From assembly GCF_014219065.1 (NCBI RefSeq), contig NZ_JACLGO010000005.1, positions 119,781 to 183,780 on the forward strand: a DNA stretch of 64,000 bases, read 5' to 3'. A program made the position numbers and the translations under genes. The notes beneath the pieces were generated by a model, which made no database searches, was not told where the DNA came from, and was given only the letters and a program-made list of their open reading frames with translations. The stretch's first letter is position 1, and each line of letters starts with the position of its first letter. The DNA is from Halopseudomonas xiamenensis (GTDB lineage Bacteria > Pseudomonadota > Gammaproteobacteria > Pseudomonadales > Pseudomonadaceae). This document shows positions 19,127-64,000 of the stretch, piece by piece.

Positions 19127-19259
19127 TCCATGGCGTTGGTAGTGCCTGCCGGAGCAGACTCGCTGATTATACACAAAACAGCAGATATCCAGCCCTCCAC
19201 CGGTGCCTGTATCTGGTTTAAGCTGCAGCTTCATTCATCAGAAAAACAAAGGAAACGCC

Positions 19260-48342: not shown

Positions 48343-48666
48343 ATGAAAAAATCCAACAGCTATTCCCCTGAAGTCCGTGAACGTGCCGTACGCATGGTTC
48401 TGGAGAACCTGAAAGACTACCCATCCGAATGGGCTGCGATCGAATCCATTGCGCCCAAGATCGGCTGTGTACCACAGACGCTGCACGGCTGGGTACGCAA
48501 GCACCAGACGGATAGCGGACACCGTCCCGGCCATACGACGGAGGAGCGGGAGCGCATAAAAGCGTTGGAACGGGAGAATCACGAGCTGCGCAAGGCGAAT
48601 GAGATTCTTCGTTTAGCCAGCGCGTATTTTGCCCAGGCGGAGCTCGACCGCCGCAACAAGTTCTGA
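48343..48666 (+). CDS. IS3-family transposase OrfA
   Basis: 107-residue OrfA with a helix-turn-helix ([18 protein letters not shown], about residues 40-57) and a C-terminal leucine-zipper region ([20 protein letters not shown]). It binds the terminal repeats and is the N-terminal part of the OrfAB fusion transposase. Confidence 0.95.
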
Positions 48667-49565
48667 ACGCCTTCGTCGATGAGTACCGTGACCGTTACGG
48701 AGTCGAGTCGATCTGTCGAGTGATACAGATTGCTCCGTCTGGTTACTACCATCGTGCAGCCCAGTCACGACACCCAGAGCGCCGGAGTGCCCGTGCCACG
48801 CGAGATGAGCTGTTGTGTGATGAAATCCAGCGCGTCTGGGATGACAACATGCAGTGCTACGGTATCGTGAAGGTGTGGAAGCAGCTCAGGCGGGAAGGCA
48901 TTTATACGGCACGATGCACTGTACAACGGTTGATGCGCCGACTTGGGCTACAGGGCGTTCGACGCGGCCAGGTCATTCGTACAACGGTGCCTGATGGGAA
49001 AGTGGTATGCCCGCTGGACAGAGTCCATCGCCAATTCCATGCAGACCGCCCAAACCAGCTGTGGGTATCAGATTTCACCTACGTTTCCACATGGCAAGGC
49101 TGGCTGTATGTGGCGTTTGTCATTGACGTTTTCGCCCGCCGGATCGTTGGCTGGCGTGTGAGCAACAATATGAGAACAGAGTTTGTTCTGGATGCGCTGG
49201 AGCAAGCTCTGTATGCCCGTCAGCCGGAGCGTGAAGGGAGTCTGATTCACCATAGCGACCGCGGCAGCCAATACGTCTCTATCCGGTATACGGAGCGTCT
49301 CGCCGACGCCGGAATAGAGCCCTCTGTAGGTAGCAAAGGTGATAGTTACGATAATGCTTTAGCAGAAACCATCAACGGATTGTACAAGGCGGAGCTGATT
49401 CACCGACAATCCTGGAAGAACCGCGAAGCCGTTGAGATCGCCACGCTGGAATGGGTTCACTGGTACAACCACCGCCGCTTGCCGGGATCGATTGGATATA
49501 TACCGCCGGCAGAAGCTGAGGCAAACTTCTACCAGCAGCACAGTGGTCAGGCTATCGCAGCCTGA
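48624..49565 (+). CDS. IS3-family transposase OrfB (frameshifted part)
   Basis: rve-type DDE transposase made by -1 frameshift from orfA. The open frame extends left past 48651, reading [20 protein letters not shown]; a separate ATG/ATA start at 48720 is unlikely to be the native one. The catalytic triad is visible: Asp in WVSDFTYV, Asp in HHSDRGSQY and Glu in [15 protein letters not shown]. No stop or frameshift interrupts it, so the element may be active. Confidence 0.93.
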
Positions 49566-51088: not shown

Positions 51089-51516
51089 CGTGGGCTCCTC
51101 TGGAGGTAGCAGAGTTCGGGTTGCCGGCAGAGGGCGCCCGGCGGTGTATTGTCGAGGATGGCCAGCGCAGCGAAGCTCGGCTCCCTGATGTCGACCGACG
51201 AATGCAGAGCAGTGCCAATAAACAATCCCAGCAATAACGAGGCCGCTGCGGCCGTTCCCGACAGGGCGCGTCGCCCGCGCTGCCGTCTGGCAACCGGCTG
51301 GCGCTCTGGCAACTGCCTCAACAACATGGGTAAATCCAGCCCGGACTCGAGCATTGGCAACTGGTGCATATCCTGGCTCAGCTCGCGCAGATCCCGGTAC
51401 TGTCGCTGACAGATCGGGCAACTGAGCAGATGGCTGCTGGTCTGCGCCATATCTGCACTGCTCAGCTCGTTGTCCAGATGGGCGGATAGTTGAGTGATGT
51501 CTGGATGTTCAGTCAT
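51085..51516 (-). CDS. Anti-sigma factor with zinc-binding motif (ZAS-type)
   Basis: 143-residue anti-sigma factor. The N-terminal domain has the zinc motif HLLSCPICQ (H-x3-C-x2-C) and is followed by one membrane helix (about residues 86-104) and a short periplasmic tail. The ATG at 51514-51516 follows AGGAG by six bases; a GTG seven codons upstream is possible. It overlaps the 3' end of the sigma gene. Confidence 0.88.
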   Translation of the reverse strand: MTEHPDITQLSAHLDNELSSADMAQTSSHLLSCPICQRQYRDLRELSQDMHQLPMLESGLDLPMLLRQLPERQPVARRQRGRRALSGTAAAASLLLGLFIGTALHSSVDIREPSFAALAILDNTPPGALCRQPELCYLQRSPR

Positions 51517-52063
51517 CTGATTCTCCTGTGGTGTCACGGCGTGCCTGCAGCACTGCTGTGCGGGCGCGGGCCAGGCGCGATTTCACTGTACCTTCACTGA
51601 TGTCCAGCGCGGAGGCCATTTCCTGATAGGAAAAGCCCTCCAGTTCACGCAGCAGCAGTACTTCACGCTGGGCCAAAGGCAGCCGGGCCAGCAATGCTTC
51701 CAGTTGTGCGATGTCCCGGCTGTTTTGCAGCTGGCGTGAGGGCGTCGGCCCCGGGTCGGTGAGCAGGTAATCCTCGGGCAACGGGTCGGGTTCATGCCTG
51801 GCGCGGCGCAGGGCGTCAATAGCGGTATTGCGCGCGATGCGTAGCAGCCAAGTGGTGAAACGCGCATCCGGGCGCCAGCCCGGCAACGCTTGCCAGGCTT
51901 TGATAAAAGTCTCCTGGGTCAGATCCAGCGCGTTGTCAGGGTTGCCGCACAGACGACGGACGAAGGAGAACACCCGACCCTGGTGCAGCTGCACCAGTTC
52001 CCCAAACGCCTGGCGGTCACCCGCCCGCGCCCGGCGAATCAATTCACCGTCGGTAGTCTGCAT
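51509..52063 (-). CDS. ECF sigma factor (RpoE-like)
   Basis: 184-residue ECF sigma factor. Region 2 runs through NALDLTQETFIKAWQALPGW and FTTWLLRIARNTAIDALRRA; region 4 through LPLAQREVLLLRELEGFSYQ and ISEGTVKSRLARAR. ATG 52061-52063 has AGGA four bases before it; an in-frame ATG at 52094-52096 would give 195 aa and falls in the core site of the last attC. First gene of a sigma / anti-sigma / Spy-like operon. Confidence 0.92.
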   Translation of the reverse strand: MQTTDGELIRRARAGDRQAFGELVQLHQGRVFSFVRRLCGNPDNALDLTQETFIKAWQALPGWRPDARFTTWLLRIARNTAIDALRRARHEPDPLPEDYLLTDPGPTPSRQLQNSRDIAQLEALLARLPLAQREVLLLRELEGFSYQEMASALDISEGTVKSRLARARTAVLQARRDTTGESDD

Positions 52064-52095
52064 GTTGTCCTGTGGAACCTGTCCTTTGCTAAACA

Positions 52096-52162
52096 TAACG
52101 TCCGCAACACCGGCAAACTGGAGCGCAGCGTAAGTTTGTCCGAGTGCTTGCGTTTGTTAGCA
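52096..52162 (-). other. attC site 14 (last, distal end of array)
   Basis: Core sites TGCTAAC and GTTATGT bound a 67-base imperfect palindrome with arms CGCAAGCACTCGGACAAACT and CGCAACACCGGCAAACT (as read on opposite strands); the unpaired bases are the expected extrahelical ones. Its GTTATG end contains the upstream ATG of the sigma gene. Confidence 0.88.
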
Positions 52163-52164
52163 CT

Positions 52165-53115
52165 TTAGAACGGCTCATTGTTGTCTTCATACATGATGTT
52201 GCGCATTTCTTCTTCGAGGTCAATCTCAAAATACTCAACGGCATCATAATGATTAGTTGATACATATGTATTTCCTAAGTCGCATGCCACGAGCTTTGAA
52301 TAGCCAGATATTTTTAGACCACAAGCACTACAGGCAAAGTTTGCAGGAAGCATTGTTTGTTTCTCAATAATTCCGTCTTCATCAACTGTGGTTTTCGGTG
52401 CGCCAACTGAGCGCCCCTGTATCAAAGCGACACTATTACATGCTGGGCATTGAACTCTGTGCCCATGATGCCTTGTTGAGAGCAATTCAGCTTGCTCTGA
52501 AAGTCTGGCCCTTTCTTCGTCAGATTTATCATTCCAGATCGTTCTATGCGCATTAATAGTTCCCTTAACCGACTTGGCACTTTCATCTTGCAAAGCAGAA
52601 ATATGATGCTCGGCTTCCTCTGCTGCATCTTTGCCTAGTAAATTCTCTAATGTTTCCCCAATTGATGTCACCAGAACTTTGCATACAGAGTAAAACATCG
52701 GAAGCCAAGAGGAAGAGCCTACACCATCAAAAGGTAACGCCCCAGAATGCAATTCGCTATTTCTTTTGCTTATATGAGCGATGCTGAAATTCAACATCTC
52801 TCTCGTAAAATCCGGAAATAGGGTCTCAGCTCGTTTTAGTAGATCAGAAATGTCTGCTGATTTAGGAGTAAATTTTTGCTGATTGGGGTCGGTGCCAACT
52901 GCGTATAGAATATTATTCCAATCTTTTCCATCAGCAATCAAGGCGGGCGATATATTGGATATAGCTGCCCGAACCAAAATCTCGAGTGTTAGCGCAGACC
53001 AAAACCCAAACTCCCAATCCGAATGCTCCTTTTCCATCATCGTTTCGATGTATCGCTGAGATTTTGAAAACAATGCGTCTTTAGACCATTCGTGCGCTGT
53101 TCTTGTAGCGTTCAA
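52165..53115 (-). CDS. Cassette protein with HEPN-like motif and zinc ribbon
   Basis: 316-residue protein. Mainly helical N-terminal region with KRNSELHSG at about residue 114 (R-N-x3-H, the HEPN ribonuclease motif). The C-terminal part has paired CPAC and CSAC cysteines about 40 residues apart, a zinc ribbon. The start is TTG 53113-53115 after GAGGTGA, overlapping the stop of the oxygenase gene (TTGA), so both are in one cassette and co-translated. Family not named; HEPN assignment is from the motif. Confidence 0.75.
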   Translation of the reverse strand: MNATRTAHEWSKDALFSKSQRYIETMMEKEHSDWEFGFWSALTLEILVRAAISNISPALIADGKDWNNILYAVGTDPNQQKFTPKSADISDLLKRAETLFPDFTREMLNFSIAHISKRNSELHSGALPFDGVGSSSWLPMFYSVCKVLVTSIGETLENLLGKDAAEEAEHHISALQDESAKSVKGTINAHRTIWNDKSDEERARLSEQAELLSTRHHGHRVQCPACNSVALIQGRSVGAPKTTVDEDGIIEKQTMLPANFACSACGLKISGYSKLVACDLGNTYVSTNHYDAVEYFEIDLEEEMRNIMYEDNNEPF

Positions 53116-53765
53116 ATCATCACCTCGTCAAAATAAACTCTTTCTATTCTTCTACCCATTGACTTTTTGCTGACAGCGCTTCTGCCGTGGAGTATCCGCC
53201 AATTATCTATGAGTAAGCACTGACCGCTCCTATCAAGATTCAGGCTTATATATTTTGCGTTACTTATAGCATCTTGAATTTTCAACTTTAGCATTTCTGC
53301 ATTACTATTTGCGGGCTCTATAAAAATCGAATCCCAGCGAAATATCTCACCCTGCTTGACTTTCAACAGGTTCGCCGCCTTATCCAATCTTTTCCTAGGC
53401 TTAAAGTGAGACCTGCTGAAAATATCAGCGTCAATATCGCCACATATATCTCTGCTATCGATAAGTTTCGTCGCCACATCAGGCCCAGGGACAATGCATC
53501 TTAGAAAGAGGTACCTTGGTGGAACGTACCAATGAGCCAAGTCAGTATGAAAAGGAAAATCGTCAAGCCCAAAGTTGCCACTATATGTGTTTTTCAGTTC
53601 ATTCTCTTTTTGCCTTGGTGTCAGTGTCTGCACCAACGGCATCGTCGGAACCCTGAATATCTTTCCGATCTTCTGTGCCACTTCAATCATCGACACTGCT
53701 GTGTCACTTGAAAATGACATATACCCTTTTTCTCTCAGCTCTTTCCCCAATACTAGATCTCTCAC
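53112..53765 (-). CDS. Cassette TauD/TfdA-like Fe(II)/2-oxoglutarate oxygenase
   Basis: 217-residue enzyme. The iron ligands are in FPFHTDLAHWYVPPRYLFLR (H-x-D) and the distal His in NWRILHGRSAV; the 2-oxoglutarate arginine follows in RRIERVYF. It is shorter than TauD (about 280) but the core looks complete. The start is GTG 53763-53765, ten bases inside the cassette from the attC core. The substrate is unknown. Translationally coupled to the HEPN-like protein downstream. Confidence 0.78.
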   Translation of the reverse strand: MRDLVLGKELREKGYMSFSSDTAVSMIEVAQKIGKIFRVPTMPLVQTLTPRQKENELKNTYSGNFGLDDFPFHTDLAHWYVPPRYLFLRCIVPGPDVATKLIDSRDICGDIDADIFSRSHFKPRKRLDKAANLLKVKQGEIFRWDSIFIEPANSNAEMLKLKIQDAISNAKYISLNLDRSGQCLLIDNWRILHGRSAVSKKSMGRRIERVYFDEVMI

Positions 53766-53774
53766 TTTGTGGTG

Positions 53775-53865
53775 CTAACGCCCGGCTTTGGGGCGGGCTT
53801 GTAGCCGCTTAGCGGCGAAAAGACCGTCCCAGCCCCGAAGGGGCGACAACAGCCGATTGTTAGAA
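53775..53865 (-). other. attC site 13
   Basis: Ends TTCTAAC and GTTAGCA; about 90 bases with arms around GCCCCTTCGGGGCTGGGACG and GCCCGCCCCAAAGCCGGGC. Nearly identical to attC sites 12 and 1. Confidence 0.9.
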
Positions 53866-53881
53866 GGTAGCCGCAACATAC

Positions 53882-54424
53882 CTATGCCTTAGTGCCTGAA
53901 ATCTGATTTAGCTGATGCTCTAGGTCGGCCGCTAGCCTGACATATGAAAGTACGGCATCGGGATCAGGTGAAAAGTCCGGATCGTGAGCGGCGCGGTTTC
54001 TGAGTTCCTGTAGTTCGGAGAGTAGGCTTAGATGAGCCTCTGGAAGCAATCCAGATTTTCGGACCGCCTGTAAAGACGCGGGAGCATACCGTCTAGCCGT
54101 TGCGTTAGTGAGCCCTCGCTCCATAGCAAGATCGATAACTTTATCTTCTAGCTTGAGCCACGCTTCAAGCACAGTGCCACGAGGATTGGCGGTGGCGTCC
54201 TTCGCAGCAGAAGCTGGCGGCGGCAATGAAGGTAGATCTGGAACGCGTGCTTCAATAGCCTGCATCTCACGCTCGAACTCGAACTCAGCCGATCCAATCT
54301 TTCCTCGCTTGATGTTCCGAAGGAGCATGGCGACCTGGTCACGGAACAAAAGCGCGAGTACCACTGCCGTGACAGGCCATGCGAGCGCTTTTACTAGCTC
54401 AACCACTAGCACCAATGAATCCAT
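53882..54424 (-). CDS. Cassette membrane protein with HEPN-like motif
   Basis: 180-residue protein with one N-terminal membrane segment (about 5-25), a charged linker rich in Ala/Pro and a helical C-terminal domain with ELRNRAAHDPDF (R-N-x3-H, about residues 146-151). The C-terminal part resembles DUF4145-type HEPN proteins. The start is the ATG at 54422-54424, 13 bases from the upstream attC. Function unknown. Confidence 0.72.
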   Translation of the reverse strand: MDSLVLVVELVKALAWPVTAVVLALLFRDQVAMLLRNIKRGKIGSAEFEFEREMQAIEARVPDLPSLPPPASAAKDATANPRGTVLEAWLKLEDKVIDLAMERGLTNATARRYAPASLQAVRKSGLLPEAHLSLLSELQELRNRAAHDPDFSPDPDAVLSYVRLAADLEHQLNQISGTKA

Positions 54425-54435
54425 GTGATGTCCTT

Positions 54436-54526
54436 CTAACGCCCGGCTTTGGGGCGGACTTGTAGCCGCGCAGCGGCGGAAAGGCCGTCCCAGCCCCGAA
54501 GGGGCGACAACAGCCGATTGTTAAAT
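54436..54526 (-). other. attC site 12
   Basis: Ends ATTTAAC and GTTAGAA; same family as sites 13 and 1, differing at a few positions. Confidence 0.9.
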
Positions 54527-54536
54527 GCCCTTGCTC

Positions 54537-54743
54537 TCAACAGTCGTACCGATCCTTTATGTGTTGATGGTAGTACTGGCCAATAGAGCGGGCCCTAACA
54601 AAATCACAAAAGACTCTCTCTGGGACCCGACAAAAAGTGTACACAGGGTCGCTATCCTCAAAATCTATGTACATTCGCATGGTGCTGGCATCGTAGCCAA
54701 TGCGCCGAATAGCCGTTGACCGAACATTAATCCACTCTGTCAT
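54537..54743 (-). CDS. Cassette KTSC domain protein
   Basis: 68-residue KTSC-domain protein. VRSTAIRRIGYDASTMRMYI, VYTFCRVPERVF and the C-terminal GQYYHQHIKDRY match the family, which is thought to bind nucleic acid and is found alone or fused to lysyl-tRNA synthetase-like and phage proteins. The ATG at 54741-54743 is preferred; a TTG eight codons earlier would overlap the upstream gene. It lies eight bases after the beta-flower gene, in the same cassette. Confidence 0.72.
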   Translation of the reverse strand: MTEWINVRSTAIRRIGYDASTMRMYIDFEDSDPVYTFCRVPERVFCDFVRARSIGQYYHQHIKDRYDC

Positions 54744-54751
54744 GTGTCTGC

Positions 54752-54970
54752 CTATTTCCTTAACCAAGGCAACGTTTTTGATGGGCCATATATGTGACCA
54801 TCATCAATCCAAAATTTCCCGCTGTCGGTAGGCCCCCAGATCCAGCCATCATCAATCCACCACTTGCCAGAGTTATATGGCCCCCAAATATACCCGCCAC
54901 CAATCCAGAACCTTCCGGATTCTTCTGGACCCCAGATGTAGTTATTATCAATCCAAAACCCGGTATACAT
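54752..54970 (-). CDS. Cassette four-repeat aromatic (beta-flower type) protein
   Basis: 72-residue protein almost entirely made of four tandem repeats of about 15 residues with the pattern F/W-W-I-D-x-G-x-I-W/Y-G-P-x-x-S-G, for example FWIDNNYIWGPEESGR. This is the pattern of four-fold beta-flower proteins, whose function is unknown. There is no signal peptide. Start ATG 54968-54970, 20 bases from the attC core. Confidence 0.72.
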   Translation of the reverse strand: MYTGFWIDNNYIWGPEESGRFWIGGGYIWGPYNSGKWWIDDGWIWGPTDSGKFWIDDGHIYGPSKTLPWLRK

Positions 54971-54988
54971 CTGGACTCCTTTTGGTAT

Positions 54989-55076
54989 TTAACGCTGCCA
55001 GCAGCGGCCGAAAAGCCGCGCAGCGGGTTTGAGGTCCAGCGACCAACGGGAGCGTTGCTGACTGGCCTTGTTACGT
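54989..55076 (-). other. attC site 11
   Basis: Ends ACGTAAC and GTTAAAT; 88 bases, a family of its own. The stop codon of the gene at 55071 lies in the core site. Confidence 0.85.
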
Positions 55077-55490
55077 TTTGCCTGCACTTGTACCAACCAT
55101 TGATGCCAATAATGAATTGAGCTGATTTGTTAAAGTTTTAAGAGCTTCTTCTTGAGTATGCCCAGCAGCGCCTGGCTGCGGATTGGTTGCAATTTGATGA
55201 ATCGCGTCTTGAATCCCTTTAGTCAACGACTGCGCAGCCTCGATTTTGGCGAGCGCCGCTTTACCTTCAATTACCTGTGGCATTGAATCCAAGATTCCAA
55301 CTGTCGAAGCCATGATTTGTTTCTGCCAGCCTTCAATTGCAGTATTGACGTTATCAAGTACCAATTGTGCCTTTTGCGCATCATTTTTGGCAGAAGATGC
55401 AAACCAAATTGCAAGACCAACACTCACAAATGACAAAACAATACTCAAAATTGGCACTAGCCAATCTTTAAATAATTCAACAATGGTCAT
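55071..55490 (-). CDS. Cassette membrane-anchored helical protein
   Basis: 139-residue protein with one N-terminal membrane segment (about 10-32) and a long helical, Ala/Gln-rich cytoplasmic or periplasmic part. I recognise no family. The ATG at 55488-55490 follows AAGGAGTGTAA. The TAA stop is part of the attC core site, as is common in cassettes. Confidence 0.65.
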   Translation of the reverse strand: MTIVELFKDWLVPILSIVLSFVSVGLAIWFASSAKNDAQKAQLVLDNVNTAIEGWQKQIMASTVGILDSMPQVIEGKAALAKIEAAQSLTKGIQDAIHQIATNPQPGAAGHTQEEALKTLTNQLNSLLASMVGTSAGKT

Positions 55491-55506
55491 TTACACTCCT
55501 TGAAAC

Positions 55507-55514
55507 GTAACGCC
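55507..55514 (-). other. attC remnant (core site only)
   Basis: GGCGTTACG on the minus strand is a typical attC right end, but only 18 bases separate it from the DUF3024 stop and no palindrome is left. The rest of the site appears deleted, which fixes the two neighbouring cassettes together. Confidence 0.55.
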
Positions 55515-55525
55515 AATATTATGTG

Positions 55526-55873
55526 CTACCCGAAGAAACAGCCATTCTCGTCAGCATTCACGATAGCAAAAAATTCCTCGATGGAGCGTGATTCAGGTTC
55601 TGGCGTGTACGCATGCCACTTTAAATCGCTGCGCATCCAGTAGATTTTCCAGCGTTGAGATTTCTGGACGTAGGTAGCTTTTGCAACCGGCGACTCAATG
55701 CTCTTTGATGGTTCACGGAAATGCGGGCGAACCTCCACAATTTGTATGCTCTGGCCAGTAACCCGAACTTCTATATCAAGCTCGGGACGGATCGCGACCG
55801 GTGGACGCCGGACTTCCAGAAACTCCGAAGCAGCACGCTCAATTTTCTTTGCTTCAAACTCGCTGAATGCCAT
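55526..55873 (-). CDS. Cassette DUF3024 family protein
   Basis: 115-residue DUF3024 protein. The conserved pattern includes FEAKKIERAASEFLEVRRPP, LDIEVRVTGQSIQIVEVRPH, and YVQKSQRWKIYWMRSDLKWH in the C-terminal half. The function is unknown; DUF3024 is a known resident of integron arrays. The start is the ATG at 55871-55873, 27 bases from the attC core; a longer open frame runs through the attC and is not coding. Confidence 0.82.
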   Translation of the reverse strand: MAFSEFEAKKIERAASEFLEVRRPPVAIRPELDIEVRVTGQSIQIVEVRPHFREPSKSIESPVAKATYVQKSQRWKIYWMRSDLKWHAYTPEPESRSIEEFFAIVNADENGCFFG

Positions 55874-55898
55874 ACGGATTCTCCATCGAAGCGCCCAC

Positions 55899-56014
55899 AT
55901 AACGCCCGGCACAGCGGCAGCCGTAACGGAGCGGTTTTGTGTTAATGTTTGAGCGACAGCGAGTAACACAAAACCGCGTAGTGTAGGCTGTCCGCCTGCT
56001 GCCGTTTGTTAGAG
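55899..56014 (-). other. attC site 10
   Basis: Ends CTCTAAC and GTTATGT; 116-118 bases with arms that include TAACACAAAACCG. Nearly identical to attC site 7 at 59255, with matched changes in both arms. Confidence 0.9.
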
Positions 56015-56242
56015 ATTTTCACTGTTCAGCCGCGTCAATGATGAAAAGAACAGTGAAAAGCCAAAGAACCCAGAAACAAAGCCTAGCAGTAAATATGTAG
56101 TAAACTCTGTCCAAGTGCCCAAGCTTTCAGCAAAAAACTCAAGATCCAAATCCATGACCGTGACTCCTTTGTGAAGCATAAGGACACCAAATAGCACCAA
56201 AACCGAACCAATAGAAAGTTTAGCGATTACTCTTTTATCCAT
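56009..56242 (-). CDS. Cassette two-helix membrane protein
   Basis: 77-residue protein with two hydrophobic segments (about 8-26 and 50-72). No family recognised. The start ATG overlaps the end of the upstream gene by 16 bases and GAGAGG precedes it, so it is co-translated with that gene. The stop TAA lies in the attC core. Confidence 0.62.
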   Translation of the reverse strand: MDKRVIAKLSIGSVLVLFGVLMLHKGVTVMDLDLEFFAESLGTWTEFTTYLLLGFVSGFFGFSLFFSSLTRLNSENL

Positions 56243-56430
56243 TCGGCCTCTCCCGTTCGTTCAAGATTAATCATGCGTGATTTTGGAATGGCAATATACT
56301 CTCGGATGTCTTCGCTCTCGACCTCAAACATTCGAATCGGGTCTACCTCTTGCTGCGCAATGAGAATAGCACACACAATAAAGGCAACGAGAGATGCAAT
56401 AATTTTTACTTGCCTATGGTCTAGGTTCAT
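56227..56430 (-). CDS. Cassette single-span membrane protein
   Basis: 67-residue protein with one N-terminal hydrophobic segment (about 8-27) and a charged C-terminal tail. First gene of a two-gene cassette with the two-helix protein. No family recognised. The small two-gene membrane pair recalls toxin-antitoxin or immunity modules, but nothing in sequence proves it. Confidence 0.6.
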   Translation of the reverse strand: MNLDHRQVKIIASLVAFIVCAILIAQQEVDPIRMFEVESEDIREYIAIPKSRMINLERTGEAEWIKE

Positions 56431-56436
56431 TATTCT

Positions 56437-56511
56437 CTAACGTTTGGTTAAGGGGCCGGCTTTAGCCGGTCCCGAGTGAGCGAAGCGAACGGCTTGAAGC
56501 ATTTGTTATGA
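56437..56511 (-). other. attC site 9
   Basis: Ends TCATAAC and GTTAGAG; about 75 bases with arms around GGGACCGGCTAAAGCCGGCC. Nearly identical to attC site 4 at 61157. Confidence 0.9.
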
Positions 56512-57138
56512 GCAGCCACGCTTATATTCTGGCAAGCAATCTTCATATTGTTTTTGAATTGCAGGGATTTTTCCTCTTTGCCGAGGGTCGCCAGAGAGTA
56601 TTACGAGCAGCATGCCTACCATTACCGAAACGCCATTAGATATTTTCAGCATCTGAACTAAAAGTGGTGCGGGATAGCCTTTACTGTGGCGATTGATTGC
56701 ATGAATGCCGCTGTGAATGAAAGAGCTCAAGGGTTTCCAAGAATACTCCTTGAATTCAAGAAGCATTTCTAATGCTTCTTGAGGTGCCTTGCCTTCCAAG
56801 CTTTTGAGCATTTCGCTAAGCATGGGCAATTTATTGGCTTTATCTGCAGACTCGCTGGTGAGCTCGCACATGAGCTTTGAGATTGCATGGTCAGATGCGG
56901 AGTAAAGCAGCCACATTGCTCTTGTGAGAGCTTCATATTGAAGTCGAACCAGCCCTGTGGCGGATGTAAAATTCCCAGTTGCTATTAGCAATTTTGCACT
57001 TTCTGCGTGTTCAAAAGTGATGCTGCACATCACTCTGCTGGATACGATTCTTTCAGATCTATCGTAAGGCGGCAGTGAGATAAATTGTAAAAGCGCACTC
57101 TCCAGTTCGGCTGATCTTGAGAGTAGTGGGTTGATCAC
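56506..57138 (-). CDS. Cassette hypothetical helical protein
   Basis: 210-residue, mostly helical protein. LVRLQYEALTRAMWLLYSAS and PLSSFIHSGIHAI resemble families of DUF5677/DUF6988 type, which are related to HEPN-like folds; the R-x4-6-H motif is not clearly present. The start gives MINPLLSRSAELES. The stop is in the attC core. Function unknown. Confidence 0.65.
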   Translation of the reverse strand: MINPLLSRSAELESALLQFISLPPYDRSERIVSSRVMCSITFEHAESAKLLIATGNFTSATGLVRLQYEALTRAMWLLYSASDHAISKLMCELTSESADKANKLPMLSEMLKSLEGKAPQEALEMLLEFKEYSWKPLSSFIHSGIHAINRHSKGYPAPLLVQMLKISNGVSVMVGMLLVILSGDPRQRGKIPAIQKQYEDCLPEYKRGCS

Positions 57139-57155
57139 AGTTCTACCTGCTGTTC

Positions 57156-57255
57156 ATAACGCCTTGCTCAGCGGTGAGTTAAGCTGGCACTTGTTTTGCC
57201 TGACCTTGCAAAACAAATGACGGGTTGACGAATCCGTTGCAGCAACTTGTTATAA
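57156..57255 (-). other. attC site 8
   Basis: Ends CTTATAAC and GTTATGA; about 100 bases, with inner arms TTTGTTTTGCAAGG and TTGTTTTGC. A family of its own in this window. Confidence 0.85.
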
Positions 57256-57256
57256 G

Positions 57257-59185
57257 CTAGCTTAACCAACCTCGGATCTCCTCTATCCATGAAGGCACAT
57301 CATACTTGTCATCTATAGATTCAGTATATCTTTGAGAGAACCAGAATTTATTATTACCCATATCAAAAAATTGCTCAATTTGGTTCCACTGGCTAGCCTT
57401 TAAATCTAACGCTATTTTCGAACTTTCTTGCGAAATTTCATCTGTTATATCATTCAAGAAACTAAGTTGTTCAGGATAACTTTCGATAAAAGTACATAGA
57501 GTTTCAAAGAACAACTTACCATTCAAAGCATCTTCGATTTCTGTTGATGGAGAAACCGGGTTAGCTTGAATATTGACAAGCTTTGTTGACCGAGTTTGCA
57601 TACAATTAACCATTCTCTTACAAAAAAGATTTGGGTAATTCTTCACATCATAATTAACCAATTGTGCGTCAGTATCTGAAAGTAAAATAATTTTTCCCGA
57701 AATTTCTTCTTGAAAGTCTTCATACGAGGTCGACAAGTGGTTGTACAATCTCTTGATCTCTTTCGCCCCGCCAACAGGGACAATCCTTAATCTCTTTGAG
57801 TCAATCAAATCTTTAAAGTAAGAGCTCAAATACACTTTTTCAGACGACCCTTCACATATAATCCAGTTAAATGGAGTTTCACCGATTGCACTAGTAATCA
57901 CTGACTGCACGAAGTCATTAATGCTCTTTAGCCTTATATCGTAGGGTAAGCGCCCTCTAGATGAGGCAGTTAATTGCTTGATTTGCTCTCTGTAATTAGC
58001 CAAGTTAATCATGTCGAAAACATGCATCGAGTCATTTTTGGATATTACGGTTGCACTACCTGTTTCTATTGTTGGTAAAAAACCATACCAATGAGATGAA
58101 AAAATAACTTGCATAGCATCCCGACTAATCTCATATAGCGCATCAAATTGGTCGAAGCATGCGGACATATGCAAGGATGATTCTGGCTCATCGATTCCGA
58201 TTATTAAATTTGCACCTGTATCTCGGTGCTTGTTAAGCAAGCTATGTGCAACATCAATTATGGCTTTTTGCTTCTCACCTGAACTTAATGAGCTAATTTC
58301 TAGCCAGTTTTCACCTTGCTTCTTGTGTAGTTTTCTTGTGCTAAAGAATGATTGAATTATTAGATTATATACGTCATTTTTCTTGAGATATTGCTGTCTA
58401 TCAGTTGGCGTTCTATAAGAGTATATTTCCAGCTCTTGAGCAAGTTTATCGATGAAAGAGTTGAGGCTCGAGTTGATTTCGTTAATTTGTTTCTGTGGTA
58501 CTCGCTCACTCAATATTTGTATTAAAGTCTCTCCCATAAGAACCTGAATTTCGTCGGTCTCTAGCTTTGTAAAAAGCTCCGGCTCAATCTCTCTAGGTAT
58601 ATAAATGTAATCAACGATTGCTTTTATTTTGTTTAGCAACGGTAGAAAAGATTCAAGCTCATCATCAGATAGCGAAGTCTTTCCTGGGTCTACTTCTTCA
58701 CCTAAGAGCCTCTCTACTACCATGCGGTTGTTAAAGAGCGATATTGTCGTCCCCCCTTTATAATCAACCCCTAATGGGATAATTAGTAAATCAGACAAAT
58801 CTACTCTTTGAATTAACCTCTCTCTATGTTCGACAAAAGCTTTAGCGTGACTTTTAAGTGAAGGTGATACATCGTTCTCACTAATATTAATAGCGACAGC
58901 ATTTAATAATTCTGCTTTTTCAAGCTCATCGCCAGAAAAGTAACTCCGTTTAAGGAGAAAAACAGGAACTATCTGCGGTTTTGTTGAAGATTTACCGCTC
59001 TTTTTAGTAACAGTATTTAAATTCCAAGGCTTGGCATTAAAAAAAGTGTCAAGCGACTCCAAAACTGAGCTTTTCCCTATCCCATTGTTGCCGACCAATC
59101 CACAAAATTTATCTTCATCGGTAATTGGAATATAGTTAATTCCTTGATAAGTTTTGTAATATCTTAAAAATGTTCCAATTATCAT
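57257..59185 (-). CDS. Cassette OLD-family ATPase/TOPRIM nuclease
   Basis: 642-residue protein. N-terminal ABC-type ATPase: Walker A GNNGIGKSS (about 33-41), signature LSSGEKQKAIID, Walker B LIIGIDEPESS, H-loop SSHWYGF. C-terminal TOPRIM: WIICEGSSEKVYLSSYF with the catalytic Glu and ILLSDTDAQ with D-x-D. This is the build of OLD nucleases such as GajA, the Eco8 retron effector and AriA-related proteins. It is alone in its cassette, without a GajB-like helicase or retron, so it is a candidate single-gene defence nuclease. Unusually long for a cassette. Confidence 0.85.
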   Translation of the reverse strand: MIIGTFLRYYKTYQGINYIPITDEDKFCGLVGNNGIGKSSVLESLDTFFNAKPWNLNTVTKKSGKSSTKPQIVPVFLLKRSYFSGDELEKAELLNAVAINISENDVSPSLKSHAKAFVEHRERLIQRVDLSDLLIIPLGVDYKGGTTISLFNNRMVVERLLGEEVDPGKTSLSDDELESFLPLLNKIKAIVDYIYIPREIEPELFTKLETDEIQVLMGETLIQILSERVPQKQINEINSSLNSFIDKLAQELEIYSYRTPTDRQQYLKKNDVYNLIIQSFFSTRKLHKKQGENWLEISSLSSGEKQKAIIDVAHSLLNKHRDTGANLIIGIDEPESSLHMSACFDQFDALYEISRDAMQVIFSSHWYGFLPTIETGSATVISKNDSMHVFDMINLANYREQIKQLTASSRGRLPYDIRLKSINDFVQSVITSAIGETPFNWIICEGSSEKVYLSSYFKDLIDSKRLRIVPVGGAKEIKRLYNHLSTSYEDFQEEISGKIILLSDTDAQLVNYDVKNYPNLFCKRMVNCMQTRSTKLVNIQANPVSPSTEIEDALNGKLFFETLCTFIESYPEQLSFLNDITDEISQESSKIALDLKASQWNQIEQFFDMGNNKFWFSQRYTESIDDKYDVPSWIEEIRGWLS

Positions 59186-59254
59186 TATTATCCTTGTTAA
59201 CTAACAGTGAGGCTAATTTCTTAAATTAATTTTGTACGCGGCCTCTTGAGGCTT

Positions 59255-59370
59255 ATAACGCCCGGCACAGCGGCAGCCGTAACGGAGTGGTTTTGTGTTA
59301 ATGTTTGAGCGACAGTGAGTAACACAAAACTGCGTAGTGTAGGCTGTCCGCCTGCTGCCGTTGGTTAGGC
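59255..59370 (-). other. attC site 7
   Basis: Ends GCCTAAC and GTTATAA; 116 bases, nearly identical to attC site 10. Confidence 0.9.
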
Positions 59371-59407
59371 TCATCCGGAGCCGCTTTAGATGTCGATTTA
59401 TACCACA

Positions 59408-59869
59408 TTAAAGCCAGCGCCTAACAGTTGCCATGTATTGCTCAAATTCCTTACCGAACTTGGCTTGTAAGGCCCGCTCCTCCGGCTTGATTTGATAAGT
59501 ATTCATATAAATAACAAAGCACGGCAGCAAGAGTACGGTAATCATGTTAGACAGCCAGACCCCCCAAGCAATAAGGATAAGAAGGAATCCAAGATACATT
59601 GGATTGCGAGAGAGTCGATATATGCCATCTTGCACAATGGTCGAAGAATCGCCAGGCACAAGCGGATTTACTGTTGTGTGATGGCTGCGGAACGCCACTA
59701 CACCAGATAAAACAATAAGAGCACCAAAGAGCGCAACAGTTACAGCAACAATGTCTCGCACCGAAATGTGAAGCGTGACGGCTGGAGCCAGAAGCGAAAT
59801 CGCATACATAGCAAGAGCGAATAATATGACAAGCATCAAAGGTGGAATTTTGAGTTCAAGTATACTCAT
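59408..59869 (-). CDS. Cassette isoprenylcysteine methyltransferase-like membrane protein
   Basis: 153-residue integral membrane protein of the ICMT/PEMT (phospholipid methyltransferase) family. Four membrane helices; the catalytic region GIYRLSRNPMYLGFLLILIA and the closing EERALQAKFGKEFEQYMATV are typical. These enzymes methylate membrane lipids or small thiols with SAM. The start is the ATG at 59867-59869, close to the attC core. Confidence 0.82.
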   Translation of the reverse strand: MSILELKIPPLMLVILFALAMYAISLLAPAVTLHISVRDIVAVTVALFGALIVLSGVVAFRSHHTTVNPLVPGDSSTIVQDGIYRLSRNPMYLGFLLILIAWGVWLSNMITVLLLPCFVIYMNTYQIKPEERALQAKFGKEFEQYMATVRRWL

Positions 59870-59886
59870 GCCATTTCTCCAGTGGC

Positions 59887-59983
59887 CTAACGCCGTTGTT
59901 CAGCGGTGCCCTTGTAGCGCAGCGAAAAGGGCATCCGGTGGAGGGCCGTCAGGCCCGGAACGAACTGGAACACTTGGTTAGAT
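59887..59983 (-). other. attC site 6
   Basis: Ends ATCTAAC and GTTAGGC; 97 bases with arms near GATGCCCTTTTCGC and GCGCTACAAGGGCA. Separate family. Confidence 0.87.
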
Positions 59984-60382
59984 TTATTGGACCCTACCGC
60001 CTGAAACATGGGCTGCGAAACCGTCCCTTGCTTCCTGTGTAATGCCGGATAGATCTTTGGCCGGGACTCGCTCAACTTTAATCCCCATGGCCCTAGCAAC
60101 TTTGACCAGATCATCCGCGTCGTACTCAGACGCTATGAACAATTTTTGCGGTCTTGAGCCAGATTGGCCTTCAGCGTCGGCCAGCAATTTCCTTGACAGA
60201 AATTCCGGCAAACCAGGCATGCTTACTTGAACAAGCTCCATACCAAAGATCATCCCCGTTGCCACCTCCATGATGGCCATAGCGTTGAAATCACCATCAG
60301 CCTCAGTCATCACCGGTGCTTCGTTCAACTGGAAAAGCAGCCAGGCTTCATTGTGGGCGAAATCAGACGGTTCAACTGCCAA
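59984..60382 (-). CDS. Cassette hypothetical protein, 132 aa
   Basis: 132-residue soluble protein. MAVEPSDFAHNEAWLLFQLN begins it and ARAMGIKVERVPAKDLSGIT lies near the C-terminus; alternating alpha and beta character is likely. The family is not recognised. The ATG at 60380-60382 follows AGGAGAG. The stop is at the attC core. Confidence 0.65.
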   Translation of the reverse strand: MAVEPSDFAHNEAWLLFQLNEAPVMTEADGDFNAMAIMEVATGMIFGMELVQVSMPGLPEFLSRKLLADAEGQSGSRPQKLFIASEYDADDLVKVARAMGIKVERVPAKDLSGITQEARDGFAAHVSGGRVQ

Positions 60383-60405
60383 GTTACTCTCCTATTTTCT
60401 TGAAT

Positions 60406-60496
60406 CTAACGCCTCAATAACCGGCAGCCGAAATGCAGCGAAGCGAAATGTAGGCTGTCCGGCGCCGCAGGCGCGTAGTTGATTGATTTGTTAGGC
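60406..60496 (-). other. attC site 5
   Basis: Ends GCCTAAC and GTTAGAT; about 91 bases with arms that include GGACAGCCTACATTTCGC. Separate family. Confidence 0.87.
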
Positions 60497-61138
60497 ATTG
60501 TAGCTACCTACAAACGATGCAGCATAATCAAGAAACGGGCCGAGACGCCAATATGCAGTTTTTGATTGAGCTATTTCTACATCAAGCTGTTTCGATGCCT
60601 CTGTTTCAATATGAGCTAGGTTCCTCAGCTCATAGGTACGCTTAATATCCTCAGCGTAAGTCGCTTCGAGAAATCCAATGCGTACGGCACAATCGACTTT
60701 ATCTTTAAATGGTATTGAATTTTTTGGAGTTTTTGCGTCGCGATATACGCAGGTAAATATATCTTCGTCTCCATACTTAACCTTGGTTAAGCTGCCCAAG
60801 GCGTTAACTGGCTTATATGCCTTATGAGTTTGAAGCTGTATCACTTCTGGATGCTCTTTAAGCAACCCCCACAACAAGTTGGTTATCACAGCCTCGTATA
60901 TTGAGGCGTATTGCATAATTTGAAATTTCACAAATGGATGCTGCTCATCATTTTGAACGAATGTAGCCTCCATTAGCTTGTAGACATAACGTGCAGAGTA
61001 AAAAGCTCTACCCAAGCGAAGCCTAAGCTCAGCATCGTCAATAAATGAAAATTCATCTATGTGCCAAGTCATATCTCCAGGGAGATCTCTTACACAATAA
61101 TCATGGATGAGATTTCTAGTTTCTTCTTCTAAAGGCAT
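60491..61138 (-). CDS. Cassette hypothetical protein with RNxxH helix
   Basis: 215-residue helical protein. EDIKRTYELRNLAHIETEAS has R-N-x2-H, one residue shorter than the canonical HEPN spacing; the context in a long helix near the C-terminus is similar to HEPN and DUF families. The N-terminal part contains an EAVITNLLWGLL helix. No named family recognised. ATG 61136-61138; stop in the attC core. Confidence 0.65.
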   Translation of the reverse strand: MPLEEETRNLIHDYCVRDLPGDMTWHIDEFSFIDDAELRLRLGRAFYSARYVYKLMEATFVQNDEQHPFVKFQIMQYASIYEAVITNLLWGLLKEHPEVIQLQTHKAYKPVNALGSLTKVKYGDEDIFTCVYRDAKTPKNSIPFKDKVDCAVRIGFLEATYAEDIKRTYELRNLAHIETEASKQLDVEIAQSKTAYWRLGPFLDYAASFVGSYNA

Positions 61139-61156
61139 GATCTTCCTTAGTGTTGC

Positions 61157-61230
61157 CTAACGTTTGGTTAAGGGGCGGGCTTTAGCCCGTCCCAGTGAGC
61201 GAAGCGAGCGATTTGAACCAGTTGTTATAT
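61157..61230 (-). other. attC site 4
   Basis: Ends ATATAAC and GTTAGGC; about 74 bases, nearly identical to attC site 9, with arms around GGGACGGGCTAAAGCCCGCC. Confidence 0.9.
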
Positions 61231-61956
61231 TGCGGCCTCAATTTTATTTGGATAAATGAACCCTTCAATTGTCATAATCGGCGCATTAGCTGGACTGCAC
61301 GTGATGTCGAGTTTTTCGATATTTTTTGAGGAGGTATATGATGAGTCAAGATCAATTACAGCCTGCTTGACTTTGAGCTCTTCAATTTCTCGGCACTTGT
61401 CGGCTATGGTGTTGGTGATGTTATATACAAATTTATACATATCAAACCCTAGCTCATAAATTTTGCCATCCAGTTTTAGGCTTGGTCTATTGCAGAATTT
61501 TTCTAGATTTTGTAAAAGCTCAGGGCCGTAGTCAAAACAGATAAACATTGAGCCTAGCTCGCTCTCGATAAATGCTTTTTTTCTTTTATGATCCCTGTGG
61601 CCCTCAGGAGCTGTATTGTTGTCTATAAATGACTTTAAGCTCTTAGCAAAGGTTTCCAGTGGAATTATCAGGTGCTGCGAGTGGCTAACGATAGTGTTTT
61701 CACCAGCTGATACATAGAGACGAATCTCATCCACGTCACCAATGTGATGAAAATAGTTTCTTACTGTTCTTAATATTTTGAACTCTGGCGTATCTTTTAT
61801 ATTGCAGCCAAAGAGCTCTTTTAGTTTGTCGGCAGTTGAGTGTAGGTTATTCAGGTATGTGAACAGCGTGTTGATATCTCTGTTCTGTGAAAATCTAAAA
61901 TCCAGCAGTTCGTACTGGCTATGTAAGTAACGATCTATGAATGTGTATTTTTCCAT
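61225..61956 (-). CDS. Cassette protein with HEPN-like motif (RNYFHH)
   Basis: 243-residue protein. FKILRTVRNYFHHIGDVDEI contains R-N-Y-F-H-H, that is R-x4-H, in a helix at about residues 67-72. The remaining sequence is helical with a beta-rich C-terminus. Family not named. ATG 61954-61956; the stop TAA lies in the attC core. Confidence 0.68.
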   Translation of the reverse strand: MEKYTFIDRYLHSQYELLDFRFSQNRDINTLFTYLNNLHSTADKLKELFGCNIKDTPEFKILRTVRNYFHHIGDVDEIRLYVSAGENTIVSHSQHLIIPLETFAKSLKSFIDNNTAPEGHRDHKRKKAFIESELGSMFICFDYGPELLQNLEKFCNRPSLKLDGKIYELGFDMYKFVYNITNTIADKCREIEELKVKQAVIDLDSSYTSSKNIEKLDITCSPANAPIMTIEGFIYPNKIEAAI

Positions 61957-61973
61957 GCGAAACCAGACTCAAT

Positions 61974-62085
61974 ATAACGCCGCGATAAACGGTGGTTTTT
62001 AAGTTGCACTTTTGCCATAAGATGAAGCGAAGCGGAATGGCAAAAGTGCAACTTAAAAACCATCCGTTTGATTGCTTTGTTAGAG
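61974..62085 (-). other. attC site 3
   Basis: Ends CTCTAAC and GTTATAT. The inner arms at 61994-62017 and 62038-62061 are a perfect 24-base inverted repeat around a 20-base loop, longer and cleaner than in the other sites. Confidence 0.9.
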
Positions 62086-62574
62086 GCCTTTTTTATAGTT
62101 TAGAATTTGCTTTGCTTTTTCCGTTGCTTGTTGCAACAGCGCCGGATTAGCCTTTATATCAAGTCTATAAGTTAGCCATGAAGCAAAAAAATGCTCCATC
62201 AGGTGATGAGCATTAATAAAAATAACGTCAGGAGATTTGTTTTCTGTACATACTGCGGAACCAGTAGTGTAATAGACTTTTTTAGCTTTTCCTTTTGCTG
62301 TGTCTCTAGATTCGGCGGTGGCAGTGTGAAGAAGAGCATTTCTAGCAGCCCACAAATCATCTACGGAGCACCCAAGATTTTGGGAAGGCTTGATGTATTT
62401 TTCAGCCCATACTTTGAAGTCAGCTCCTGAAGATTCTTGAGAGCTTACCGAAAGCCAAGCCATTTGATCAATGCCTGCAAAAGTAATCATTAATGCAGCT
62501 TCGATATATTGTTCTTTAGCCAAAACACTAATAGCACCGCCAATTCTTTCGTAAAATTGATCCAAATGATCCAT
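62080..62574 (-). CDS. Cassette protein with HEPN-like motif (RNALLH)
   Basis: 164-residue helical protein. DDLWAARNALLHTATAESRD contains R-N-A-L-L-H, an ideal HEPN R-N-x3-H motif, at about residues 88-93. YIEAALMITFAGIDQMAWLS forms another core helix. It is a good candidate for a minimal HEPN ribonuclease. No antitoxin partner is in the same cassette. ATG 62572-62574; stop in the attC core. Confidence 0.72.
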   Translation of the reverse strand: MDHLDQFYERIGGAISVLAKEQYIEAALMITFAGIDQMAWLSVSSQESSGADFKVWAEKYIKPSQNLGCSVDDLWAARNALLHTATAESRDTAKGKAKKVYYTTGSAVCTENKSPDVIFINAHHLMEHFFASWLTYRLDIKANPALLQQATEKAKQILNYKKGL

Positions 62575-62587
62575 GGCACATAATCCT

Positions 62588-62663
62588 CTAACGCTGCCAT
62601 AAACCGCGCGAGCTTGCGAGCGTCGGGCGACCGAAGGGAGCGAATTTAATGGCTTTGTTAAAT
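62588..62663 (-). other. attC site 2
   Basis: Ends TTTAAC and GTTAGAG; about 76 bases with inner arms near CGCCCGACGCTCGC and GCGCGAGCTTGCGAG. Separate family. Confidence 0.85.
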
Positions 62664-62664
62664 T

Positions 62665-62994
62665 TCATTTAGGAGTTACCAACTGAGACTCCGAGAATCC
62701 GCACTCGGTGCACTTATATTCTCTACGAATACCACCCAAACGGCCAAATTTCTGGTCAGGTTTGCTAGATTCAACTACCCAAGCTGGCTTGCGGCATTTC
62801 GGGCAAGGCTCGCCTTCGAAAGATTCCAGCCTTCTTACTCTCTCCTGAAGTTCGAGCACCTGATTTTTCAGGTTGATATTTTCTTCTTGAAGCTCCAGCG
62901 CAGACTCGCGCAGTTCCATGATTTTTTCTTGTGCCTCTATCGTGGCACCTTTTTTTATTAGTTCAGTAATGTCCTTGTAGCTTGGAAGTGCCAT
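62665..62994 (-). CDS. Cassette coiled-coil zinc-ribbon protein
   Basis: 109-residue protein. A coiled coil (about 25-62, ELQEENINLKNQVLELQERV) is followed by a zinc ribbon with CPKC and CTEC. DNA or RNA binding is plausible. No named family recognised. ATG 62992-62994, 16 bases from the attC core. Confidence 0.68.
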   Translation of the reverse strand: MALPSYKDITELIKKGATIEAQEKIMELRESALELQEENINLKNQVLELQERVRRLESFEGEPCPKCRKPAWVVESSKPDQKFGRLGGIRREYKCTECGFSESQLVTPK

Positions 62995-63009
62995 ATGCTC
63001 TCCTAGAAT

Positions 63010-63100
63010 TTAACGCCCGGCTTTGGGGCGGACTTGTAGCCGCGCAGCGGCGAAAAGGCCGTCCCAGCCCCACAGGGGCGACAACAGCCGATTGTTACAT
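63010..63100 (-). other. attC site 1 (first, proximal)
   Basis: Ends ATGTAAC and GTTAAAT; 91 bases, same family as sites 12 and 13. The stop codon of the upstream gene is in its core. Confidence 0.9.
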
Positions 63101-63727
63101 CCTATTCTCCCGCAAATAAGAAAATTCATTTTGAATAAAATAAAAAACCTGATCGATTTCAATATCATAAACTGCACAATTCCTGGCCCCACAAAAAAGA
63201 TAAGCCAGCGAGCTATCATCAACGTTATTTTTTAATCGCACCGACTTAAACTGCCCCTCCTCAATACCTGACAGTAGCTCCTTCGCGGCATTCACACCCT
63301 GCCTTTCGAAGATAACTAGCGCCATAAATATTAGAAAAACTCCAGAAGCGACAGACCACCATATACACATTCTGCGGCCATACTTTCTTGCCATGATGCT
63401 TTTCTTCTTCGTTGCAAAGCGCAATTTCTTTTTTAAATTAACCAGTCGCCTCGCATTTGAAAATTTCTTTGAGACAAACTGACTCATCTCTATTTTATAC
63501 GCAGCATGTATAGTAACCAATAACGCAACTATTAACGGAGCCAATATAAAAGACAATATATTCAGAATCATCCCATGGTAAATGATCTGATGAAAATTTC
63601 GATCTAAGACATTTCCGTCGAGCTCAAGCACGCCAAAGTAACCATAAGTGTACGCGGTACTTGACGCATATAAAAAAGCGGTAACCGCTGCAATAAAGAA
63701 TGCACTATTAAATGACTTAAAATTCAA
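63095..63727 (-). CDS. First-cassette membrane protein, 210 aa
   Basis: 210-residue protein with three hydrophobic segments (about 8-25, 45-70 and 118-140), a basic loop between the second and third, and a C-terminal soluble part with a cysteine pair in FCGARNCAVYD. No family recognised. There is no ATG; the start is TTG at 63725-63727 with GAGGTG upstream. As the first cassette it is best placed for expression from an integron promoter. Confidence 0.65.
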   Translation of the reverse strand: MNFKSFNSAFFIAAVTAFLYASSTAYTYGYFGVLELDGNVLDRNFHQIIYHGMILNILSFILAPLIVALLVTIHAAYKIEMSQFVSKKFSNARRLVNLKKKLRFATKKKSIMARKYGRRMCIWWSVASGVFLIFMALVIFERQGVNAAKELLSGIEEGQFKSVRLKNNVDDSSLAYLFCGARNCAVYDIEIDQVFYFIQNEFSYLRENRM

Positions 63728-63739
63728 TTAACACCTCAT

Positions 63740-63746
63740 ATGTAAC
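63740..63746 (-). other. attI-like core site
   Basis: GTTACAT on the minus strand, after CACT rather than the GGC that precedes core sites at attC ends. No palindrome lies to its right. This is what an attI insertion point beside the first cassette should look like. Confidence 0.45.
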
Positions 63747-63809
63747 AGTGATTAGACCGCACGCGGTACTAATACACAATATTGTGCTCGATATAACTCC
63801 GCTCGCACG

Positions 63810-64000
63810 ATGCCATACCATCCAAGAAAAGCCTTAAAAATCATTGAATTGCTACCTCCGTCACAGATTGATCCGTATTCGCTTGACTTCGGCCTTTCAC
63901 GCAACCATTACTACTGTATAAAAAAGGCTCTTCACCTTTTCTGGTGGGTAACCCTTTATTTCTCTGTCATTTTTGCTCACCATCGACCGGGTAAACTAGG
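63810..64000 (+). CDS. Partial frame, possible (degraded or divergent) integron integrase start
   Basis: A 63-codon frame starts ATG at 63810 and runs off the window. Residues from about 33 read HYYCIKKALHLFWWVTLYFS and later HHRPGKLG. Integron integrases have, at the same spacing from an H-Y pair to a Trp, a pattern H-Y-S-x-x-T-E-x-x-Y-x-x-W followed by a H-x-x-R-H-P-x-x-[LM]-G segment; ours has one extra residue and lacks the T-E pair. Its place and direction are exactly those expected for intI. The rest of the match is weak, so it may be a decayed gene or chance. No ribosome site is seen. Confidence 0.35.
   Translation, partial: MPYHPRKALKIIELLPPSQIDPYSLDFGLSRNHYYCIKKALHLFWWVTLYFSVIFAHHRPGKL

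Follow-up and report, generated by a model that had tools for sequence, protein, structure and literature searches.

The window analysed here is a 64,000-nucleotide stretch of the Halopseudomonas xiamenensis genome, and at 52.1–63.7 kb it holds the array of a sedentary integron. The array is about 12 kb long and consists of gene cassettes, all on the − strand, separated by 14 attC recombination sites and headed by an attI site (Table 1). Its GC content, taken per 1-kb step, is 0.37–0.52 at 52–64 kb, compared to 0.55–0.66 in the remaining window. The 14 sites between the genes have TAAC...GTTA bounds that can be read by eye, and in seven of them the attC contains the neighbouring gene’s stop codon. 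At a 15th junction, near position 55507, the attC is mostly gone and only the R′ core is retained.

We searched for these sites with a covariance model that owes nothing to the window or its genome: its 43 aligned training sites, picked by core-site pattern and folding, come from the arrays of other genomes. The model recovered 13 of the 14 sites, all on the − strand and all inside the array, with expectation values (E) between 1.1e-15 and 0.003 for twelve of them and of 0.094 for the weakest (attC 9). At E ≤ 1, it found no further attC on either strand of the 64-kb window. The site that it missed, attC 2, has an unremarkable DNA fold (z = −0.45) and is accepted because of its core sites and its position between two genes. 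Home-made attC finders based on folding were dropped for their many false sites or misses (one of them placed six sites in the array, one inside a gene, and eight elsewhere on the same strand), and the covariance model was therefore used instead. An original prediction, made from the letters alone, had described a chromosomal integron with 14 attC sites, genes on one strand, an AT-rich composition next to a GC-rich chromosome and many stop codons within core sites; it named a covariance-model search as the check, and the description stands in each of these respects.

The attI site, read from the integrase side, ends in ...TTAGTACCGCGTGCGGTCTAATCACTGTTA. Beyond it the window ends with its contig, C55, inside an insertion sequence that is probably ISL3-like by its terminal sequence; the plasmid collection gave no match that could name it. 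Another contig of the genome, C27, begins with the matching inverted end of an insertion sequence, and the 8-bp target duplication beside attI recurs there; C55 and C27 are joined on the strength of these matching ends and the shared duplication. Positions 98–1063 of C27 encode an intact integron integrase of 321 amino acids (TIGR02249, 394.4–394.6 bits with a cut-off of 265) that aligns end to end with the Vibrio cholerae IntI of 2a3v (E = 4.9e-75). What we take to be the catalytic residues R, H, R, H and Y are present at 140, 270, 273, 296 and 305. The C27 flank is the purL integrase locus, which is common to 14 genomes of Halopseudomonas. As pieced together from the two contigs, the likely order is purL, intI, insertion sequence, attI and cassettes, with one insertion sequence between intI and attI.

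An array without an integrase had been considered and was dropped once the C27 integrase and the matching insertion-sequence ends were found. A related alternative would make the window array a cluster of attC sites lacking an integrase (CALIN) that has nothing to do with the C27 gene, as no integrase lies beside attI on C55 and C27 starts 97 bp before intI. We consider this very improbable: the two contigs agree in their insertion-sequence ends and in the 8-bp duplication, the attI tree places the window attI with the integrase-linked copy of its nearest relative (98/95) and the C27 flank is the shared purL locus. An integrase gene, an attI by the first cassette, a one-way attC array and a fixed chromosomal place together identify the sedentary integron that had been predicted. 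A mobile integron would be carried on a transposon or plasmid; here, the purL locus is chromosomal in 14 genomes, and the matches listed from a plasmid search are short attC-sized pieces only, 2–3% of the query.

Control of intI by the SOS response is known (PMC3108266). We call an attI linked if an integrase or a piece of one lies within 1.6 kb, and solo otherwise. The relatives carry a LexA-type box, CTGT-N8-ACAG, at intI: all 15 linked platforms compared have at most one mismatch and 11 have none, a count that omits L177 (linked, not anchorable) and the interrupted window row. The window genome’s two predicted halves are separated by the insertion sequence, CTGT at the window end and CCAG (one mismatch) on C27, so that the + strand reading is CTGT-ATAAAAAA-CCAG. 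The duplicated 8 bp is the spacer of intI’s predicted LexA box, and therefore the insertion split the predicted operator. We infer an effect of the insertion sequence on how the integrase is expressed; the split box would offer a natural case for integrase expression outside SOS control.

Two further copies of attI are found in the window genome, on contigs C82 (76%) and C37 (72%). Each heads other cassettes, and no integrase was found within 1.6 kb of either array. All three copies have the same lay-out up to GTTA and diverge beyond it. The covariance model finds three attC sites on C82 and one on C37, a contig that ends 1.7 kb on and whose single attC is below the IntegronFinder default of two. 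Containing attC and no integrase, both satellites are by definition CALINs, with attI sites of their own. The last cassette of the C82 array (L186, 12534–13146) contains a small gene pair that resembles toxin-antitoxin genes of the VapBC type.

We then quantified how widespread such copies are within the genus. A DNA search with attI gave matches in 23 of 37 Halopseudomonas genomes, and the 46 aligned copies are conserved up to GTTA with few exceptions at the core. A model of 173 positions, built from 34 of these 46 copies, locates 103 places in 34 of the 37 genomes at E ≤ 1e-3 (28 linked, 75 solo) and 66 places at E ≤ 1e-10 (21 linked, 45 solo). Contig ends could hide an integrase near some of the 45 solo sites, as in the window; the outer sequence extends for 1.6 kb or more at 40 of them, is shorter at four and is of unknown extent at one. 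All 118 attC-model matches at 36 attI loci, 43 of them being training sites, lie downstream of attI on the same strand. The same holds for 36 of 36 matches at 20 further loci that played no role in attC training; these matches fall in 14 of the 20 loci, and four of the other six have less than 3 kb of downstream sequence. Among 18 loci of other genera, 27 of 29 matches are downstream on the same strand. L227 has two attC matches, at 1000–1650, upstream of the attI of its contig and on the same strand, perhaps the end of another array. At L158, L163 and L177, the attI core is followed by an identical GTTGAACTAAACCGC sequence, in two cases at contig ends; it may belong to an insertion sequence with the attI core as its target.

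The solo copies are most conserved next to the core. Pairwise identity among 24 solo copies is 0.89 in the 34 core-proximal columns, 0.40 in the spacer and 0.30 in the 14 columns after the core; for 15 linked copies the values are 0.78, 0.43 and 0.28, in a comparison that omits seven rows of a divergent subtype or with an odd core. The LexA box is absent from the solo copies (0 of 28 anchorable copies, with two to seven mismatches of eight); as the sequences are related and hence not independent, a Fisher value here is no true probability. One could explain the solo attI block as a promoter or other cassette signal, kept for a purpose other than recombination, since integron platforms have a cassette promoter near attI (PMC9024848) and solo blocks are conserved even where no integrase remains. 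The most conserved part, however, stops exactly at the GTTA core, a simple promoter scan (a weak test) found no sigma-70-like site inside the window attI, and the arrays do change, as described below. We therefore rate the promoter explanation as improbable, if less so than the unrelated CALIN considered above.

Many copies also have a conserved outer element, whose end is GGGCGGTAGCGTGC. Twelve of the 16 linked copies have its motif, and for 10 of these its distance from the core is −1191 to −1199; 16 of the 29 solo copies have it (13 do not), and for 14 of these the distance is −199 to −208. About half of the solo copies thus resemble a platform from which intI has been cut out. Such a likeness favours the usual view of CALINs, in which solo arrays are decaying relics of complete integrons after integrase deletion; IntegronFinder 2.0 describes CALINs as degraded integrons (PMC9024848). 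By contrast, solo attI cores are conserved as well as linked ones. The outer element of 12 loci has no match in Rfam. We had considered the 13-mer GGGCGGTAGCGTG as unique to attI platforms, and dropped it: it also ends another repeat context (6 of 20 fetched copies; L192, L193, L200, L201, L207 and L211), TCCTCAaGA...AATCtTGGGGCGGTAGCGTG, at G000:C11:271637 and C23:11203, with copies in G005, G022, G030 and G006.

Solo sites recur at the same chromosomal positions. In 14 genomes the linked platform occupies a single locus, next to purL, and a solo platform is found beside valS in six species, with other solo loci common to four, three, two, two and two. A diverged attI is found at this valS locus in another three species, two of which have attC as well; the locus is empty in five species, where the flanks are 108–191 bp apart, and in G036 and G015 it shows neither attI nor attC. 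No product occurs in more than one of the six valS arrays, which have 20 cassettes in all (E ≤ 1e-8, open reading frames of at least 60 amino acids).

Comparing relatives, we found three pairs in which both flanks are fixed and the arrays have no DNA in common at E ≤ 1e-10. Loci L138 and L150 have flanks of 96.7 and 95.8% identity and arrays of 4.9 and 6.3 kb with nothing shared, and both genomes have an intact integrase. The same is seen for L164 and L165, with flanks of 95.3 and 94.3% identity and arrays of 3.1 and 3.0 kb, in genomes whose integrase is broken or a fragment, and for L156 and L167, with flanks of 91.3 and 89.0% and arrays of 4.1 and 8.2 kb, in genomes where it is in pieces. 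L175 and L176 have a divergent subtype of attI that lacks the outer motif. Their identity is 99.99% across the 9,015 bp of outer flank and attI and 99.94% across 1,789 bp of the inner part; L176 has an extra 1,029 bp exactly after GTTA, comprising two cassettes, each with a terminal attC. To judge from these two sequences, the insertion or loss of the two cassettes was exact and recent, whichever integrase was responsible: in one genome (G009) an in-frame stop interrupts the integrase, and the other (G010) has integrase fragments. Replacement of whole cassette sets at solo loci between relatives with fixed flanks, and an insertion or loss exact at the core, both argue against relics in decay.

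In the proposed mechanism, IntI would recombine the attC of a circular cassette with the GTTA core of attI, and new cassettes would thereby enter next to attI. As integrase-less units, made of the conserved outer element, about 20 bp and attI, lie elsewhere on the chromosome, cassettes could be docked there too, and the integrase-less arrays would be filled by the genome’s own IntI. Our preferred reading, to which we assign a probability of roughly 0.6, is that the window contains the attI and cassettes of a sedentary chromosomal integron, that the intI of this integron lies on C27, and that this one integrase would serve the C82 and C37 arrays in trans. Service of solo attI sites by a resident integrase is, on the comparisons above, probable as a proposition of its own. 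For the broader proposal, that the genus integron is a distributed system with a single SOS-controlled integrase and several full attI docking sites across the chromosome, each with an array of its own to fill, and whose solo sites would be long-lived functional parts and not debris, we put the chances at even.

Several observations weigh against service in trans. A full-length open integrase of this type is found in 13 genomes, nine of which also have a solo attI (eight at E ≤ 1e-10) and four of which show none. Conversely, of the 29 genomes with a solo attI at E ≤ 1e-3, 20 lack any full-length open integrase of this type; they include both L175/L176 genomes and three of the four in the turnover comparisons other than L138/L150. 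Four of the 20 (G013, G022, G030 and G035) have a different integrase, 46–48% identical. Elsewhere in the family, outside the genus, five genomes with attI (one of them complete) are entirely without such an integrase. Events at solo loci may predate integrase loss or stem from another integrase, a promoter could account for the conservation of attI, and recombination between flanks could have produced the turnover. The attI tree, being poorly resolved, does not discriminate between one and many origins of the solo copies. The 20 genomes, together with the integrase fragments seen in several genomes, also count in favour of relics; given the core conservation and the turnover, we still consider that explanation unlikely, while granting it more weight than the promoter.

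The window element is an additional pseudomonad chromosomal integron. It shares with other sedentary integrons of pseudomonads an intI, an attI, a one-strand attC array, a fixed place, variable cassettes and, in relatives, a LexA box; it differs from them in the insertion sequence between intI and attI and in the further attI copies that head integrase-less arrays of their own within one genome. The typical integron has a single attI near its integrase, and IntegronFinder’s attI detection is limited to class 1 (both PMC9024848). Like the C82 and C37 arrays, CALINs have attC sites without an integrase, and those of Xanthomonas are also found at conserved loci away from intI (PMC12444791). However, the solo arrays here are each headed by a conserved attI, in most cases together with an outer element, while the excerpted text of that paper mentions no attI. 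Cassette insertion at attG also places cassettes away from the resident integron, there at diverse genomic sites (PMC12444791, citing Loot 2024) and here at a 173-bp attI homologue. The Delta-attI cassettes of mobile integrons likewise have attI in unusual places, where it was shown to recombine with IntI1; they are mostly 14–18-nt attI pieces that replace attC in class 1/2 arrays (PMC12901181), as opposed to the full attI heading separate chromosomal arrays here. The closest precedent is an integron and CALIN of the Shewanella prophage M16-3, with the same lay-out as the satellites described here (PMC9892861). It is a single case in a cryptic prophage, for which the excerpted text describes neither recurrence at orthologous loci nor a test of conservation nor cassette turnover. 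Our search of the open-licence literature found no other published case of attI-headed arrays without an integrase.

If integrase-less arrays often have a working attI, then some of the CALINs now regarded as degraded would be active satellites, each having a first-cassette position and a supply of cassettes to itself. Under a distributed system, cassette order and expression would not be confined to one place. With the 173-bp attI search model and a recombination assay, the question of CALIN origin could be put to the test.

The cassettes themselves (Table 1) bear out the original prediction that few products would belong to named families: seven of 18 scanned open reading frames exceed a Pfam curated cut-off, namely those for the OLD-like AAA/TOPRIM protein, DUF6988, DUF3024, KTSC, DUF6930, PEMT and TauD. 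Nor did we see a gene order fixed across relatives (the prediction had named an order fixed across distant genera as grounds for rejecting it); only two window cassettes have a similar product among 118 other cassette stretches. The cassette 8 product matches AriA (6.8e-16) and Old (9.5e-13) in PADLOC and is likely to act in anti-phage defence; it is 66% identical to a G007 cassette protein. At least two of the window’s cassettes likely carry defence genes, the other candidate being cassette 9. Defence genes are known cargo of integron cassettes. The 72-amino-acid protein consists of four 16-residue repeats of the type WIDDGyIWGP and has no Pfam or NCBIfam match at 0.01.

Table 1. Features of the integron array and its flanks, listed from the window end inward (window coordinates; E, covariance-model expectation value)
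Feature	Position	Strand	Remarks
Insertion-sequence end	63926–64000		C55 ends inside it; an identical end closes contig C11
8-bp target duplication	63918–63925		ATAAAAAA; repeated at C27 73–80, just before the integrase gene
Predicted LexA box half-site of intI	63914–63917		CTGT; from comparison with relatives
attI	63743–63915	−	173 bp; core ...TCTAATCACTGTTA at 63743
Cassette 1 gene	63095–63727	−	210 amino acids; no Pfam or NCBIfam family
attC 1	63008–63100	−	E 6.7e-9
Cassette 2 gene	62665–62994	−	109 amino acids; weak zinc-ribbon/Lar-like similarity, below cut-off
attC 2	62589–62663	−	By eye; not found by model
Cassette 3 gene	62080–62574	−	164 amino acids; no family
attC 3	61972–62085	−	E 5.8e-8
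Cassette 4 gene	61225–61956	−	243 amino acids; no family above cut-off
attC 4	61155–61230	−	E 0.003
Cassette 5 gene	60491–61138	−	215 amino acids; no family
attC 5	60404–60496	−	E 1.5e-5
Cassette 6 gene	59984–60382	−	DUF6930
attC 6	59885–59954	−	E 1.4e-4; to 59980 by eye
Cassette 7 gene	59408–59869	−	Phospholipid/isoprenylcysteine methyltransferase family (PEMT)
attC 7	59253–59370	−	E 5.1e-11
Cassette 8 gene	57257–59185	−	AAA ATPase with OLD-like TOPRIM
attC 8	57154–57255	−	E 2.8e-5
Cassette 9 gene	56506–57138	−	DUF6988; PADLOC candidate defence PDC-S52, 296.7 bits, 2.3e-89
attC 9	56435–56511	−	E 0.094
Cassette 10, two overlapping small genes	56227–56430, 56009–56242	−	No Pfam family
attC 10	55897–56014	−	E 1.7e-11
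DUF3024 gene	55526–55873	−	attC reduced to R′ core near 55507
139-amino-acid gene	55071–55490	−	No family
attC 11	54987–55076	−	E 9.6e-5
Two-gene cassette	54752–54970, 54537–54767	−	72-amino-acid repeat protein; KTSC-domain gene
attC 12	54434–54526	−	E 1.6e-9
Cassette gene	53882–54424	−	180 amino acids; weak HEPN (Swt1-like) similarity, below cut-off
attC 13	53773–53865	−	E 1.3e-8
Last cassette, two genes	53112–53765, 52165–53115	−	TauD family; 316 amino acids without family
attC 14	52093–52162	−	E 1.1e-15; last of the array
ECF sigma-factor gene	51509–52096	−	Flank, directly beyond the last attC

The attC family formed by attC 1, 12 and 13 shows attC-sized stretches of about 94% identity to plasmid DNA beside catB chloramphenicol acetyltransferase cassettes. 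From this likeness, pseudomonad chromosomal integrons may be a source of catB-type plasmid cassettes.

The far flank of the window array lies away from the purL locus in relatives where it was found. A DNA search did not find the flank with the extracytoplasmic function (ECF) sigma-factor gene beside the last cassettes of relatives; by these comparisons, the far end of the array has been rearranged, and the ECF sigma-factor operon sits elsewhere in relatives. Elsewhere in the window are a guanidine-II riboswitch (19083–19127) and an IS3-type transposase pair (48343–49565) with an ALIL frameshift pseudoknot (48621–48737).

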